Positions 3,927 to 17,835 of a stretch of DNA of 32,255 nucleotides are shown here, piece by piece. The notes under the pieces were generated by a model that saw only the letters and a list, made by a program, of their open reading frames with translations, ran no database searches and was not told the origin of the DNA. This stretch comes from Bacillota bacterium (GTDB lineage Bacteria; Bacillota; Sulfobacillia; JAJZIM01), in the NCBI GenBank assembly GCA_021810565.1, contig JAJZIM010000031.1:1-32255 (forward strand), in the 5' to 3' direction. Within the stretch, counting starts at the first letter, position 1. The number at the start of each line of letters is the position of its first letter. A program made the position numbers and the translations under genes.

Positions 3927-3964
3927 GCTGCAACGGCGGAGGGAGGGCTGGCCCCGGAAGACCT

Positions 3965-4134
3965 GGGCCGTGGCGGTCGTCTGGGGCGGGTGCCTCATCG
4001 TGAACCTGCCCGGCAGCCCCCGGGGGGTGCGGGAGAACCTGGGGGCGGTGCTGGAGGCCCTGGGGCATGCCGTGGAGTTGCTGCGCGGCGCGGTGCGGTG
4101 CAGGACTGCGCTCGACCGGAGGATTGACGAAAGG
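3965..4134 (+). pseudogene. Direct repeat, copy 2: orphan 3' fragment of mogA
   Basis: This segment matches the end of mogA (2691-2855) at about 96%, but it has no start and no N-terminal two thirds. A 5-bp insertion (CGGTG duplicated near 4094) also shifts the frame before the old stop. It lies just downstream of the PIN gene and upstream of groES. It is best read as the severed original 3' end of mogA, or as the product of a segmental duplication. Confidence 0.85.
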
Positions 4135-4631: not shown

Positions 4632-6167
4632 GTGGTGACGCAAGGTCCGGGAACGGCCGATGCGCAAGGTCGCCTGGTGGCGCTGGTGGACGGCTGGCTG
4701 GACGATCCGGCGACGGTGGAGACGGTGCGCCGTTCCCTGGAGGCAGGGGTGGTGCTCGACACCTGGATGGCGGGCCGGTCGGAGGAGAGCTTCGAGACGG
4801 AGGCGTTGAGCGTCATCGAAGCCGAGGTGACCGCTCTGACTCGGGAGGTCTGGGGGAAGGTCTTTTCGGGCTACCGCCTGTCCGAGCCGTATCTGGCCAC
4901 GGCCTTCCATGAGCTTTTGTCCTCCATGGCCATGTTTCAGGCGCACCGGGAGAAGGGCAACTTGCAGGTGGGGGAGCGGGAGGCCGCTCTCGCGGTCCGG
5001 CGGCTGCGCTCCTTTGCCGCCGCCGAGCCGGGGGGCCTGGGTGCCGTGCTGGGGCTGTACTGGCTCATCACCACCTACGAGAACTACGGGGCGCTGGTCC
5101 ACTACGGGCGGATCATGGAGGAGGACTTCCGCTTCGGCACCTTCCACCGGCCTTGGATCAGGAACACCCTGGACGAGGAGCTGTACCTGGCCGAGCTCTT
5201 GGGCCACGTGGAGGGGCGCCACCCGTGTCCCGAGGGCGCCTGCGTGCTGCTGACGCCGGAAGGACGGGCGGTGTATGCCCGGGTGCGCCGGGTCTTGGAG
5301 CGGGCGGGGGAGATCGCCTGGCGGATGCAGCAGCAGCACCTGGCCCTGTTCAACGAGTTTTCGGACTACGACGAGCTGTTCAACCGCGTGGGGCCCACCG
5401 CGGCGGCGGAGACGCAGCGTTTCCTGGACTGGGCGGGGCTTACCCCCGGCATGGCGGTGCTGGAGCTGGGCTGCGGCACCGGAAGGGTGACCATCAACTG
5501 CGGTCTGTACCGGCGGGTGCTGCCGGGGGGTACGGTGGTGGCCACCGATCCCTCGGCCGGCATGCTGGCCGAGGCGCAGGCCAAGGCCCGCCGCGCCGGT
5601 TTGCCCAACGTCAGCTTTTGCCGCGCGCCGGCGGAGGAACTGCCCTTTCACGATGCCGCCTTCGACGCCGTGGTGGGGATGGCCTTCCTGCATTTCACCG
5701 ATGCTTCCCGGGCGGTGCGGGAGATGGTCCGGGTGGTGCGTCCGGGGGGCACGGTGGCCCTGGGGGTGGGGCTGAAGTCGGAGGGGGCCATGATGCCGGT
5801 GCTGCCCCTCTGGTTCGAGCCGATCTTCCGGCTGGCCCGCAGCCGGGGGCTGTCCGCCGCGCCGGTGGGCAACCTGCCCGGGGAGGCCGAGGAGCTCCTG
5901 CGGGAGGCCGGGTTCGCCGAGGTGGAGACGATGCCCATGGAGTTCCCGCTGGTGGCGGCGGACGCGGTCTCCTTCGTGCGCTTGATGCTGCAGGGGCCCG
6001 GCGTCTTCCAGGAGGCGCTGGAACCGTTGCCCTACGCGGAGCGGGCGCGGCTGGTGGAGGAGCTGGAGGAGGCGGGAAGGGAGATCTGCGAGGGCACCGC
6101 CCTGGCGGAGCGGACCTGGTGGATGCGGGGGGAGTTCGTGCGGGCCCGGGTGCCGACGCCGGGGTAG
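4632..6167 (+). CDS. Class I SAM-dependent methyltransferase with long N-terminal extension
   Basis: The C-terminal ~235 residues carry a Rossmann methyltransferase domain: motif I VLELGCGTG (about 275-283), motif II VVATDPSAGML, and the motif IV region FDAVVGMAFLHF, as in UbiE/Methyltransf_11 proteins. The first ~250 residues are helical and unrecognised, with a short segment LLTPEGRAVYARVRRVL that looks like the end of a winged-helix or linker region. The substrate is unknown. GTG 4632 (or 4635) follows GGGAAGGAGG at good spacing. The in-frame ATG at 4527 lies inside the groES terminator and is rejected. The gene converges on the nif operon, with a shared terminator between them. Confidence 0.75.
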   Translation: MVTQGPGTADAQGRLVALVDGWLDDPATVETVRRSLEAGVVLDTWMAGRSEESFETEALSVIEAEVTALTREVWGKVFSGYRLSEPYLATAFHELLSSMAMFQAHREKGNLQVGEREAALAVRRLRSFAAAEPGGLGAVLGLYWLITTYENYGALVHYGRIMEEDFRFGTFHRPWIRNTLDEELYLAELLGHVEGRHPCPEGACVLLTPEGRAVYARVRRVLERAGEIAWRMQQQHLALFNEFSDYDELFNRVGPTAAAETQRFLDWAGLTPGMAVLELGCGTGRVTINCGLYRRVLPGGTVVATDPSAGMLAEAQAKARRAGLPNVSFCRAPAEELPFHDAAFDAVVGMAFLHFTDASRAVREMVRVVRPGGTVALGVGLKSEGAMMPVLPLWFEPIFRLARSRGLSAAPVGNLPGEAEELLREAGFAEVETMPMEFPLVAADAVSFVRLMLQGPGVFQEALEPLPYAERARLVEELEEAGREICEGTALAERTWWMRGEFVRARVPTPG

Positions 6168-6224: not shown

Positions 6225-6602
6225 TCAGAGGGCCTTGTCGCCCGTTTTGCCCGTGCGCACCGTGGTGGCGTCGTCGGTGGGCAACACGAAGATCTTGCCA
6301 TCGCCGATGTTGCCGGTCTGGTTGGTCTGGATGATGGTCTGCACCACCTTGGGCACCGCCTCGTCGGGCACCACCAAGGTGTACATCCGCTTCGGGATGA
6401 AGTCCATCTTGAACAGGTACTCCTCGGGGGACAGGAACTTCTGCATCTCCGGGTCGATCTCGCCCAGGATGCCGCCGATGCCGCCCTGCTTGCCGCGGCC
6501 GTGGACCGAGAGCAGGGTGCAGCCGGGATAGCCGATGTCGGCCAGGGCCTGCCGGGTGTCCGCCACCTTCTGCCGGCGGAGGATGGCCACCACCTCCTTC
6601 AC
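6225..6602 (-). CDS. nifI2: NifI2, nif-specific PII-family regulator
   Basis: A 125-residue PII protein: KEVVAILRRQKVADTRQAL at the N-terminus, a T-loop region with HGRGKQGG (about 40-47), and TGNIGDGKIFVLP with VRTGKTGDKAL at the C-terminus. The longer T-loop with a KFLSPEEYLFKMDFIPKRM insert is typical of NifI2 and not of GlnB/GlnK. In methanogens and clostridia NifI1 and NifI2 form a complex that inhibits the MoFe protein and is relieved by 2-oxoglutarate. The GTG start lies 2 nt after the nifI1 stop, with GGAGAGCGGGGG as ribosome binding region. It is the last gene of the operon, an unusual place for nifI2. Confidence 0.88.
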   Translation of the reverse strand: MKEVVAILRRQKVADTRQALADIGYPGCTLLSVHGRGKQGGIGGILGEIDPEMQKFLSPEEYLFKMDFIPKRMYTLVVPDEAVPKVVQTIIQTNQTGNIGDGKIFVLPTDDATTVRTGKTGDKAL

Positions 6603-6604
6603 GG

Positions 6605-6919
6605 CTATAGCCCCCGCTCTCCGGTGCGGATGGTGTAAACCTCGTCCACCGGCGAGACGAAGATCTTGCCGTCTCCCACGTGCCCGGTGCGGGCCGCCTC
6701 GGTGATGGCCCGGTTCAACTCGGCCACCTTGTCGTCCTCCACCACGGCCATGAGCAGCACCTTGGGGAACTCGTCGTAGACCAGGGGACCGAGCTGCACC
6801 ACCTGCTTGCCGCGGCCGAAGACGTGGATCTTGGTCAGGGCCACTTGGCCGGCTTTCTCCAGGGCCTCCTTCACGGCGGCTTCCTGCTCGGGGCGGATGA
6901 TGGCGCGGATCATCTTCAT
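6605..6919 (-). CDS. nifI1: NifI1, nif-specific PII-family regulator
   Basis: A 104-residue PII protein with MKMIRAIIRPE, FGRGKQ in place of the usual T-loop entry, YDEFPKVLLMAVVEDDKV, TGHVGDGKIFVSPV and YTIRTGERG at the C-terminus. The short T-loop without the uridylylated Tyr context of GlnB is characteristic of NifI1. It acts with NifI2 in ammonium and 2-oxoglutarate control of nitrogenase activity. AAAGGAGGAG precedes ATG 6919. nifI1 is usually found next to nifH, between H and D or just before H. Here it follows the ferredoxin gene after a 27-nt gap. Confidence 0.9.
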   Translation of the reverse strand: MKMIRAIIRPEQEAAVKEALEKAGQVALTKIHVFGRGKQVVQLGPLVYDEFPKVLLMAVVEDDKVAELNRAITEAARTGHVGDGKIFVSPVDEVYTIRTGERGL

Positions 6920-13281: not shown

Positions 13282-14287
<1,006 letters not shown>

Positions 14288-14292
14288 CCCCT

Positions 14293-14321
14293 ATATTAAC
14301 GGCGTAGGGAGCGGCTGTCAA
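14293..14321 (-). promoter_or_regulatory. Sigma-A promoter of the nifH operon
   Basis: On the minus strand: TTGACA (complement of 14316-14321), a 17-bp spacer and TAATAT (complement of 14293-14298). This is a near-consensus housekeeping promoter, consistent with sigma-A-driven nif genes in Gram-positive diazotrophs. No sigma-54 GG/GC signature was seen. Confidence 0.85.
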
Positions 14322-14332
14322 TAGGCCGGTTA

Positions 14333-14351
14333 AAGTTTTGGGAGGAAACTT
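14333..14351. promoter_or_regulatory. Inverted repeat midway between divergent nif promoters (candidate operator)
   Basis: AAGTTT (14333-14338), a 7-bp spacer and AAACTT (14346-14351). The axis at 14342 is equidistant from the nifH -35 (ending 14321) and the nifB -35 (starting 14364). An outer, slightly off-axis pair, GGTTA (14328-14332) and TAACC (14357-14361), flanks it. It does not fit the GlnR consensus TGTNAN7TNACA. A shared regulator site for both operons is inferred. Confidence 0.5.
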
Positions 14352-14363
14352 CACAATAACCTC

Positions 14364-14392
14364 TTGCCAAGGTCCATCCCGCCGGATATAAT
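14364..14392 (+). promoter_or_regulatory. Sigma-A promoter of the nifB operon
   Basis: TTGCCA (14364-14369), a 17-bp spacer and a perfect TATAAT (14387-14392). The predicted start near 14399 gives a leader of about 90 nt before nifB. Confidence 0.82.
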
Positions 14393-14407
14393 TCGGGACG
14401 AAGGTCG

Positions 14408-14453
14408 GCGCGAGGAAGCGCGGGCCCGTCCCCGAGCCGGCATCCTCGCCGGC
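14408..14453 (+). promoter_or_regulatory. Paired hexaloop hairpins in the nifB leader
   Basis: Hairpin 1: GCGC (14408-14411), loop GAGGAA, GCGC (14418-14421). Hairpin 2: GCCGGC (14436-14441), loop ATCCTC, GCCGGC (14448-14453). Five loop bases (GAGGA and UCCUC) are complementary, so a loop-loop contact is possible, and loop 2 could also pair with the GGAGGAGG ribosome binding site of nifB. Two adjacent six-base loops recall ANTAR targets, but the A1/G4 loop consensus is not met. Confidence 0.35.
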
Positions 14454-14488
14454 GGGCGGATCCGATCACGGGAGGAGGAGGCGGCGAG

Positions 14489-15322
14489 ATGGACACCCAT
14501 CCATGCTACAGCGCCCGGGCGGCCAAACGCTACGGACGGATCCACCTGAGTGTCGCGCCGCGCTGCAATCTGCGCTGCCGCTACTGCGACCGCCGTTTCG
14601 ACTGCGCCAACGAGTGCCGCCCCGGCGTGACCAGCCGCGTGCTGGCGCCCCAGGAGGCGGTGGAGGTCTTGGCGTCGGCCGTGCGGCGGGACCCGCGCCT
14701 GCGGGTGGTGGGTTTCGCGGGGCCGGGGGATCCCCTGGCCAATGAGGCCACCTTCCAGACCCTCGAGCTCTTGCGGGGGCGCTTCCCGCAACTGTCCAGG
14801 TGCCTGTCCACCAACGGCCTGCTGCTGAGGGAACGGCTGGCGGACCTGCGCCGCTCGGGCGTGGATTCGGTGACGGTGACCATGAATGCGGTGGCGGCCG
14901 GGGTGGGGGCGGCGATATACGCCGCGGTGCGCCTGAACGGCCGGGTGTACCGGGACGAGGAGGGGGCGGGCGTGCTCCTGGAGCGCCAGCTGGCGGGCAT
15001 CGCCGCTGCCGTGGCCGCCGGGATGCGGGTCAAGGTGAACGCCGTGCTGATCCCGGGAGTCAATGATACCCACCTGCCCCGGGTGGCCCGGGTGGCCAGG
15101 ACCCTGGGGGTGCGGCTGATGAACGTGATGCCCCTTTATCCCCTGGGGGAGTTCGCCGCCTTGCCCGAGCCCGCCGAGGAGGATCTGGATCAGGTGCGGG
15201 CGGAGTGTGCGGCGGATATGGAGCAGATGCGCCACTGTGCCCAGTGCCGGGCGGATGCCGCGGGCCTTTTGGGCGGGTGCCGCAAGCTGGCGCGGCGGGT
15301 TCCCGTGACGGCGGCGGTTTGA
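14489..15322 (+). CDS. nifB: NifB, radical SAM FeMo-cofactor core synthase
   Basis: A 277-residue radical SAM protein with HPCYSARAAKRYGRIHL at the start, the SAM-cluster motif CNLRCRYC (about 30-37), FDCANECRPGVTS, GFAGPGDPLAN, STNGLLL and a C-terminal CAQCRADAAG pair. NifB fuses two [4Fe-4S] units and inserts carbon and sulfur to make the 8Fe core of FeMo-co. This is the short form without the C-terminal NifX-like domain; a separate nifX lies in the facing operon. ATG 14489 follows GGAGGAGGAGG. First gene of the plus-strand nif operon. Confidence 0.95.
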   Translation: MDTHPCYSARAAKRYGRIHLSVAPRCNLRCRYCDRRFDCANECRPGVTSRVLAPQEAVEVLASAVRRDPRLRVVGFAGPGDPLANEATFQTLELLRGRFPQLSRCLSTNGLLLRERLADLRRSGVDSVTVTMNAVAAGVGAAIYAAVRLNGRVYRDEEGAGVLLERQLAGIAAAVAAGMRVKVNAVLIPGVNDTHLPRVARVARTLGVRLMNVMPLYPLGEFAALPEPAEEDLDQVRAECAADMEQMRHCAQCRADAAGLLGGCRKLARRVPVTAAV

Positions 15323-16248: not shown

Positions 16249-16277
16249 AGGAGCCTTCCCGGTGAGAGGTGGAGGGC

Positions 16278-16757
16278 ATGGGAGGCAGGCGTTGGCTGGT
16301 GCTTTCCCGCATCGCGGCGGCCGAGTTGGAGGCGCAGCTGTCCGACCTGGGGGACTGCTTGGCGGGCAGCGTGCATGACCTGGCGACGGCGGCGGTGCTG
16401 TTGCGGGAGCTGCGGCCGGATTTGGCGGCCGTGGACGGTGATCTGCTCCTGTCGCTCCTGACGGAGCGGGAGAGCCTTCAGGCGCAGGTGCGGCGGCTGG
16501 AGGCCGAGCTGGCCGGACGCCGGGAGGTGGATCGGGCCAAGGTCTATCTGGCGCAGCATCTGGGACTGAAGGAGGCGGAGGCCTACCGGCTGATGCAGAA
16601 GGCCAGCATGGATCAGCGCCGGCCGCTGCGCCAGGTGGCGGCGGATGTGCTCGGATATTGCGAGCTGGAGGGGCGCTCGGGCAAGGGCGGTTCCAAGGGG
16701 GGAGGGGACGCGGTTGCGAAGGGTGTACCTGAACGACACCACCCTGCGGGACGGTGA
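16278..16757 (+). CDS. ANTAR-domain RNA-binding antiterminator with degenerate receiver-like N-terminus
   Basis: A 159-residue protein. Residues about 75-135 (coiled-coil LEAELAGRREVDRAKVYL, then LGLKEAEAYRLMQKASMDQR and RPLRQVAADVL) match the ANTAR three-helix domain, which binds paired hexaloop RNA hairpins and prevents termination, as in NasR, AmiR and EutV. The first ~55 residues (WLVLSRIAAAELEAQL... RPDLAAVDGDLL) look like a shortened pseudo-receiver without an intact phosphorylation pocket. The glycine-rich tail after residue 135 overlaps nifV by 44 nt. ATG 16278 sits behind GAGGTGGAGG; GTG 16269 is the alternative. Its position in the nifB operon suggests RNA-level control of nif or nitrogen genes (inference). 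Confidence 0.75.
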   Translation: MGGRRWLVLSRIAAAELEAQLSDLGDCLAGSVHDLATAAVLLRELRPDLAAVDGDLLLSLLTERESLQAQVRRLEAELAGRREVDRAKVYLAQHLGLKEAEAYRLMQKASMDQRRPLRQVAADVLGYCELEGRSGKGGSKGGGDAVAKGVPERHHPAGR

Positions 16758-17835
16758 GCAGACCCCCGGCGTGGCCTTCTCGGCCCAACGCAAGGTGCGC
16801 CTGGCGATGCTCCTGGACGAGGCCGGGGTGGACGGCATCGAGGTGGGCACGCCGGCCATGGGCGGGCAGGAGCGCGACGCGGTGGAGGCGGTGTGCGCTT
16901 TGGGACTGAAGGCCCGGGTGTCCACCTGGAACCGCTCCCTGGCCGCCGACGTGCGCGCTTCCCTGGACTGTGGCGCCAGGCAGGTGCACATCGCCCTGCC
17001 GGTGTCCGACCGGCAACTGGAGCGCAAGCTGGGCAAGAGCCGCAGTTGGGCCCTGGGGGCGTTCACCGAGGCGGCGCTTTGCGCCCGGGAGGGTGGGGCG
17101 GCCTTCACCGCTGGCGCCGAGGACGCCTCCCGGGCCGACGAGGCCTTCCTGCTGGAGTTCGCGCAATGCGCGGCCGTGCTGGGGGCCGAGCGGCTGCGCT
17201 ACGCCGACACGGTGGGAGTGCTGGAGCCGCTGGGGACCTGGCGGCGCATCCGGCGGCTTTGCCGAGGGCAGCCGCTGCCGGTGGAGATCCACACCCACAA
17301 CGACTTCGGCCTGGCCACCGCCAACTCCCTGGCGGCGGTGCGGGGCGGGGCCGCGTGGGTGAGCGTCACCGTCAACGGCCTGGGGGAGCGGGCGGGCAAC
17401 GCCGCCTTGGAGGAGGTGGCGCTCGCCCTGCGGCACCTGGGGCCGTATCGGACCGGGATGGACCTGCTCCTCTTGCGCTGCCTGGCGCGGGCCGTGGCGC
17501 GGGCCAGTCGCCGGGCGTTGCCCCCCGGCAAACCGGTGGTGGGGACCCAGGTCTTCACCCACGAGGCGGGCATCCATGTGGACGGCATCCTGCGGGATCC
17601 GGCCAACTACGAGCCCTTCGACCCGGCGGAGGTGGGCGGCACGCGGCGGCTGGTGCTGGGGAAGCACACCGGCAGCGCGGCCCTGGCCCACATCCTGGAT
17701 CAGGCGGGGATGAGCGTCAGCCGGGAGGAGGCCCGGGAGCTCTTGCCCTTGGTGCGCGAGGGGGCCATCCGCGCCGGCGGCAGCGTGGACCTGGCGCAGC
17801 TGCGCGCGCTCTTGTCGAGTGGTCGGCCCGGCTGA
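16714..17835 (+). CDS. nifV: Homocitrate synthase NifV
   Basis: A 373-residue DRE-TIM metallolyase: YLNDTTLRDGEQTPGVAFS (about 5-23) with the metal and substrate residues, EVGTPAMG, the ALPVSDRQLERKLGKS region, EIHTHNDFGLATANSLAA with the HxH metal site, NGLGERAGNAALEEV and THEAGIHVDGI. It condenses acetyl-CoA and 2-oxoglutarate to homocitrate, the organic ligand of FeMo-co. TTG 16714 is chosen because GGGGGGAGGGG lies ~7 nt upstream and it gives the usual NifV N-terminus. An in-frame ATG at 16645 adds 23 unrelated residues. Last gene of the operon. Confidence 0.93.
   Translation: MRRVYLNDTTLRDGEQTPGVAFSAQRKVRLAMLLDEAGVDGIEVGTPAMGGQERDAVEAVCALGLKARVSTWNRSLAADVRASLDCGARQVHIALPVSDRQLERKLGKSRSWALGAFTEAALCAREGGAAFTAGAEDASRADEAFLLEFAQCAAVLGAERLRYADTVGVLEPLGTWRRIRRLCRGQPLPVEIHTHNDFGLATANSLAAVRGGAAWVSVTVNGLGERAGNAALEEVALALRHLGPYRTGMDLLLLRCLARAVARASRRALPPGKPVVGTQVFTHEAGIHVDGILRDPANYEPFDPAEVGGTRRLVLGKHTGSAALAHILDQAGMSVSREEARELLPLVREGAIRAGGSVDLAQLRALLSSGRPG

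Follow-up and report, generated by a model that had tools for sequence, protein, structure and literature searches.

Back-to-back sigma-A promoters between nifH and nifB in a Sulfobacillia nif cluster: a probably incidental palindrome and an ANTAR gene as a lead for nif control

In Paenibacillus, the nifBHDKENX operon is transcribed from a sigma-70-type promoter under the control of GlnR; the GlnR/TnrA consensus is TGTNAN7TNACA, and a looser TnrA motif is NGNNAN7TNACN (PMC6191146). A different mode of control is provided by ANTAR proteins, whose targets are paired hairpins, each with a loop of six bases in which A is the first and G the fourth, usually overlapping a terminator. An ANTAR regulon that includes nitrogenase has been predicted for Pelobacter carbinolicus, with targets upstream of the nitrogenase genes (PMC3369931), and the linker between the two hairpins of an ANTAR target is reported to measure 2–25 nt (PMC8164766). 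Here we describe the nif cluster carried by the window, that is, the whole 32,255-nt stretch of DNA analysed (contig C30 of a Sulfobacillia genome). Like Paenibacillus nif, it belongs to a Gram-positive-type diazotroph, has a sigma-A-type promoter and lacks a NifA upstream activating site. Unlike Paenibacillus nif, it is organised in two divergent units, offers only a 7/8 match to the GlnR box, includes an ANTAR gene and comes from a genome in which no GlnR was found. The linkage of the ANTAR gene to nitrogen genes recalls EutV/eut, NasR/nas and AmiR/ami as well as the prediction for P. carbinolicus. Finally, two sigma-A promoters with a palindrome at their midpoint are reminiscent of divergent promoters that share an operator, but the palindrome of the window is neither conserved nor repeated and has no known cognate regulator. 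The locus bears on the question of how uncultured relatives of Bacillota that lack both NifA and GlnR switch their nitrogenase.

Profile matches agree with the assignment of both nif units in the preliminary description of this DNA. On the minus strand, nifH (13282–14142; TIGR01287, 467 bits) is the first gene of nifHDKENX-fdx-nifI1I2, a unit that ends with the PII-type genes nifI1-nifI2 (6225–6919, minus strand). On the plus strand, nifB (14489–15322; TIGR01290, 299 bits) is followed by a methyltransferase gene, the ANTAR gene and nifV, which encodes homocitrate synthase (16645–17835, plus strand; TIGR02660, 476 bits). Scores of nifH, nifD, nifK, nifV and the ammonium transporter all exceed the NCBIfam cut-offs. 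NifB scores below its cut-off of 344 bits and covers positions 11–281 of the 441 in the profile, being a short form that has the SAM domain only, without the NifX-like C terminus.

Between nifH and nifB, two near-consensus sigma-A-type promoters face away from each other (14293–14392), as had been proposed. The promoter of the nifH unit (14293–14321, minus strand) reads TTGACA-17-TAATAT, with the -35 box at 14321–14316 and the -10 box at 14298–14293, separated by a 17 bp spacer, and matches at 10 of 12 positions. The promoter of the nifB-methyltransferase-ANTAR-nifV unit (14364–14392, plus strand) reads TTGCCA-17-TATAAT, with boxes at 14364–14369 and 14387–14392 and the same 17 bp spacer, and matches at 11 of 12. 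The two -35 boxes are separated by 42 bp (14322–14363). Three promoter-like sites were present in 901 bp, against 0.1 expected; the third is a weaker, overlapping site (9/12). The promoter region has a GC content of 45%, compared with about 70% for the window as a whole. A sigma-A-type nifH promoter with a perfect TTGACA is present in all three sequences compared, namely, the window, G001 (a genome of the same order; TTGACA/TACAAT) and G398 (TTGACA-18-TATACT, 11/12). We infer that both predicted promoters of the window are in use and serve two nif transcription units.

Same-order comparison was confined to one genome, G001. The class comparison included 154 genomes, four of which were found to contain nifD. 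In G001 the nif genes run in one direction, with nifH-D-K-E at a contig end and nifE-N-X-fdx-nifI1-nifI2-nifB-ANTAR-nifV on a second contig. There, nifB follows nifI1-nifI2 on the same strand and thus lies in the direction of the nifH operon, so that no shared nifH/nifB promoter region exists. A group II intron (Rfam RF02005, 65 bits) lies upstream of the G001 nif genes (L113, 3384–3486). G398 has a divergent arrangement, in which nifHDKENX faces away from thiS/thiF-type, ANTAR, second thiF-type, nifB and nifV genes; the thiS/thiF-type genes come first, and about 300 bp separate the nifH -35 box from the first plus-strand gene. The divergence of nifH and nifB in the window is best explained as a local rearrangement of a cluster that is one-directional in its order-mate. 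Another nif-bearing genome of the class, G412, was left out of the comparison of nifH upstream regions, as nifH is truncated at either end of its contig; these ends (L211, 1–153 and 11354–11506) suggest two near-identical nifH copies.

The reading that we favour, with moderate confidence, is that 14293–14392 constitutes a compact bidirectional promoter region composed of two back-to-back sigma-A promoters, one per nif unit, and that the palindrome between them is incidental rather than a shared operator. Control of nif would be exerted after initiation, by the ANTAR protein of the cluster acting on the leader RNAs and by NifI1/NifI2, whose likely function is to act on the nitrogenase enzyme itself. 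If sigma-A promoters and an ANTAR protein suffice, control of nif across the class would be post-initiation, a simple and portable design.

The main competing explanation, which takes up the single shared regulator of the preliminary description, is that a dimeric repressor or activator bound at the palindrome controls both nif units. The palindrome AAGTTT-N7-AAACTT (14333–14351), that is, AAGTTT-TGGGAGG-AAACTT or AAGTTTTGGGAGGAAACTT, is indeed exact, and its centre (14342.0) lies only 0.5 bp from the midpoint between the promoters (14342.5). Its 6-bp arms match perfectly, and a 7-nt spacer is found in the sites of several dimeric regulators. The GGTTA and TAACC pentamers said to frame it are complementary to each other but are placed differently: GGTTA (14328–14332) abuts the left arm, whereas TAACC (14357–14361) starts 5 bp past the right arm. 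The two pentamers have a dyad of their own at 14344.5, off the palindrome centre, and consequently do not extend the palindrome. An extended dyad including them was rejected because the two centres are 2.5 bp apart.

The exact 19-mer would be expected 0.03 times by chance in the window, but this is not a fair test, since the motif was picked from the site itself. As a fairer test, we asked how often the 42-mer would contain an inverted repeat of any sequence, given a minimum arm length of 6 bp and a spacer of at most 12 nt. A repeat with 6-bp arms was present somewhere in 7.4% of mononucleotide shuffles, 12.8% of dinucleotide shuffles and 8.0% of AT-rich 42-mers from the same genome. When the repeat had to be centred within 1 bp, the corresponding values dropped to 0.7%, 1.3% and 0.8%. 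With P of 0.07–0.13 for its existence and about 0.01 for its centred position, the palindrome is suggestive through its centring only, and as judged from these frequencies it would be weak evidence for an operator.

Recurrence and conservation speak against a shared operator. In the 3.18-Mb genome (115 contigs), the scan for the palindrome that the preliminary description had recommended recovered no second exact copy and one site that differs at a single position. When up to three mismatches were allowed, 142 sites were counted genome-wide, compared with 192 for a reversed-pattern control. In the absence of both another exact copy and enrichment, there is no sign of a palindrome regulon, even with relaxed matching. 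At amtB, no match was better than in shuffled sequences, and no nitrogen genes were recognisable at the low-mismatch sites viewed in their ORF context; judged by that context, two of the 2-mismatch sites viewed appear to lie inside likely genes. The preliminary description had named a lack of conservation in orthologous intergenic regions as evidence against its reading, and, as far as two relatives can show, the palindrome does lack it. Neither G001 nor G398, the two comparable relatives, has the palindrome upstream of nifH, where the best matches have 4 mismatches and do not surpass those in shuffles. Alignment of the G001 nifH upstream region to the window was likewise no better than with shuffles, and no copy of the palindrome was present in 80 cyanobacterial and proteobacterial nifH loci. 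A palindrome unique in its genome would be compatible with a dedicated nif regulator, but apart from the ANTAR gene no regulator gene was recognised in the window. Considering in addition that such a repeat arises somewhere in 42 bp with a chance of 7–13%, we regard a shared operator as unlikely and the palindrome as probably incidental. By itself, the palindrome adds little unless it turns out to be conserved in closer relatives.

Control after initiation, the course that we prefer, appears more likely for nif than control at the palindrome, and the ANTAR gene of the cluster is the stronger lead. This gene, which does not figure in the preliminary description, is part of the nifB unit, lies between the methyltransferase gene and nifV (16269–16757, plus strand) and encodes a protein of 162 aa (PF03861, E = 6e−17). 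ANTAR genes are found in the nif clusters of all three genomes, including G001 (PF03861, 1.8e−17) and G398 (3e−20); those of the relatives are located at L165, about 5170–5410, and L210, 15052–15738.

The nifH leader of G001 (L113, 5605–5711) looks like an ANTAR target as judged from its predicted hairpins. It contains CCGGC-AACGTG-GCCGG followed by TGGC-AAGGAA-GCCA, both with the A1/G4 hexaloops typical of ANTAR systems, and the second hairpin overlaps an intrinsic terminator, GCCACCCCCC...GGGGTGGCTTTGTTTTTT. The AAGGAA loop agrees with AGCAANGRRGCUY, the EutV target, and the fold of the leader has a z-score of -4.3. When the nif regions of the window, G001, G398 and G412 were scanned (about 86 kb in total), dual AnnGnn hexaloops with a T-run after them were found only in this leader; the G398 nifH leader has no dual hexaloop motif. 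The two perfect G001 hexaloops are joined by a linker of 48 nt, which exceeds the reported range of 2–25 nt (PMC8164766). A further hairpin located between them, CGGAC-GGCGCG-GTCCG, would give a linker of 6 nt.

The leaders of the window are more ambiguous. The predicted nifH 5' leader (14143–14287, minus strand) is about 145 nt long. One hairpin, CCCCGGC-AAGGGC-GCCGGGG (14249–14268, minus strand), carries in its hexaloop the A1 and G4 of ANTAR targets, while a second, GCGC-AAGGGCC-GCGC (14273–14287, minus strand), has the same two bases in a seven-base loop. The two hairpins are 7 nt apart, an arrangement with P = 0.006 that includes the admission of 7-nt loops after inspection. The second hairpin and a long-range 13-bp stem (14277–14289 paired with 14176–14188, minus strand; P about 0.01) are mutually exclusive. 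The predicted nifB leader (14399–14488, plus strand) has two hexaloop hairpins, at 14408–14421 (loop GAGGAA) and 14436–14453 (loop ATCCTC), and each of these loops departs from the A1/G4 rule at one position. Unlike known ANTAR targets, the nifH leader region of the window contains no intrinsic terminator and one of its loops has seven bases; furthermore, its overall fold is ordinary (z = -0.8) and the nifB loops deviate from the rule. These leaders are therefore a lead as ANTAR targets rather than a demonstration. No Rfam families were found in the window or its intergenic region. The ANTAR protein may bind these leaders; a specific mechanism by which it would switch both units, with the long-range fold competing against the two hairpins downstream of constitutive sigma-A promoters and in the absence of a terminator, seems to us improbable.

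Another way to account for the symmetry of the promoter region is that the palindrome arms are two mirrored A-tracts providing UP-element-like contacts for the alpha subunits of RNA polymerase. The distance from the end of AAACTT to the -35 box downstream of it is 12 nt for nifB and 11 nt for nifH, and the drop in GC content relative to the window would suit such contacts. Yet both G001 and G398 lack the AAACTT hexamer at the corresponding place, and we consider the explanation rather doubtful.

A further candidate for a functional DNA element, in place of the palindrome, is CCCAAAA (14336–14342, minus strand), the only 7-mer shared by the nifH upstream regions of the window, G001 and G398. 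The box lies 21, 31 and 33 nt, respectively, from the nifH -35 box, distances roughly one helical turn apart. In the search, which covered the 100 nt that precede the nifH -35 box, sharing of a 7-mer had P = 0.012 and that of 6-mers P = 0.002; the 7-mer value is post hoc, and the comparison rests on three sequences and a motif of low complexity. We find a role for CCCAAAA very unlikely. In the window, the box overlaps the palindrome.

Least probable is control, as in Paenibacillus, by a MerR-type regulator of the GlnR/TnrA kind at TGGGAGGAAACTTCACA (14339–14355, plus strand), which matches 7 of the 8 specified bases of TGTNAN7TNACA and fully agrees with the looser NGNNAN7TNACN (PMC6191146), but for which the genome appears to supply neither a regulator nor a regulon. 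No GlnR or TnrA was recognised among 11 MerR_1 matches in the genome; four of these were scored against NCBIfam, and the other seven, judged by sequence, resemble fusions or transposon-type proteins. No glnR is present between the putative ynbB homologue, a methionine gamma-lyase-family gene, and glnA. The two exact GlnR boxes in the genome are both away from nitrogen genes. The best GlnR-like candidate, a MerR protein of 84 aa encoded directly upstream of dnaK, resembled GlnR in a PDB search but scores best as HspR. HspR operators carry a CCTTGA-N10-TCAAGG-type repeat, and CCTTGA-N10-TCAAGG is found in the promoter of this gene. As to the locus in which glnA directly follows the methionine gamma-lyase-family gene (L166, 5342–8156), TTCGACA repeats resembling Spo0A boxes are located upstream.

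According to the preliminary description, the intergenic site corresponds to neither a GlnR nor a sigma-54 enhancer consensus. The second part stands, as the intergenic region contains no sigma-54 GG-N10-GC promoter and no NifA TGT-N10-ACA site with up to three mismatches; the first part overlooked the 7/8 GlnR-type box overlapping the palindrome. A scan of the intergenic region for sites of the Rex, HspR, Fnr, NtcA, NrpR and NifA types likewise produced no match of good quality. The genome does encode sigma-54 (rpoN), and its two true sigma-54 activators, on C32, resemble PAS-AAA-Fis proteins, with no linkage to nif. The rpoN gene adjoins a gene for a MerR-type protein with apparent GAF domains, possibly a sensor regulator (L182, C52:8000-17000).

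Two features lie elsewhere in the window. The last part of a MogA/MoaB-like gene encodes a 37-letter protein stretch that has a second copy about 1.3 kb downstream (approximately 2700–2820 and 3960–4080), beyond a PIN-domain gene; the repeat looks like a duplication or an insertion scar. The ORF at 64–1296 carries an HNH-like motif (CAYC...HTVPKGRGGTNRVSNLVIAC) and, on sequence grounds, looks like a relative of IscB/HNH-type RNA-guided nucleases.
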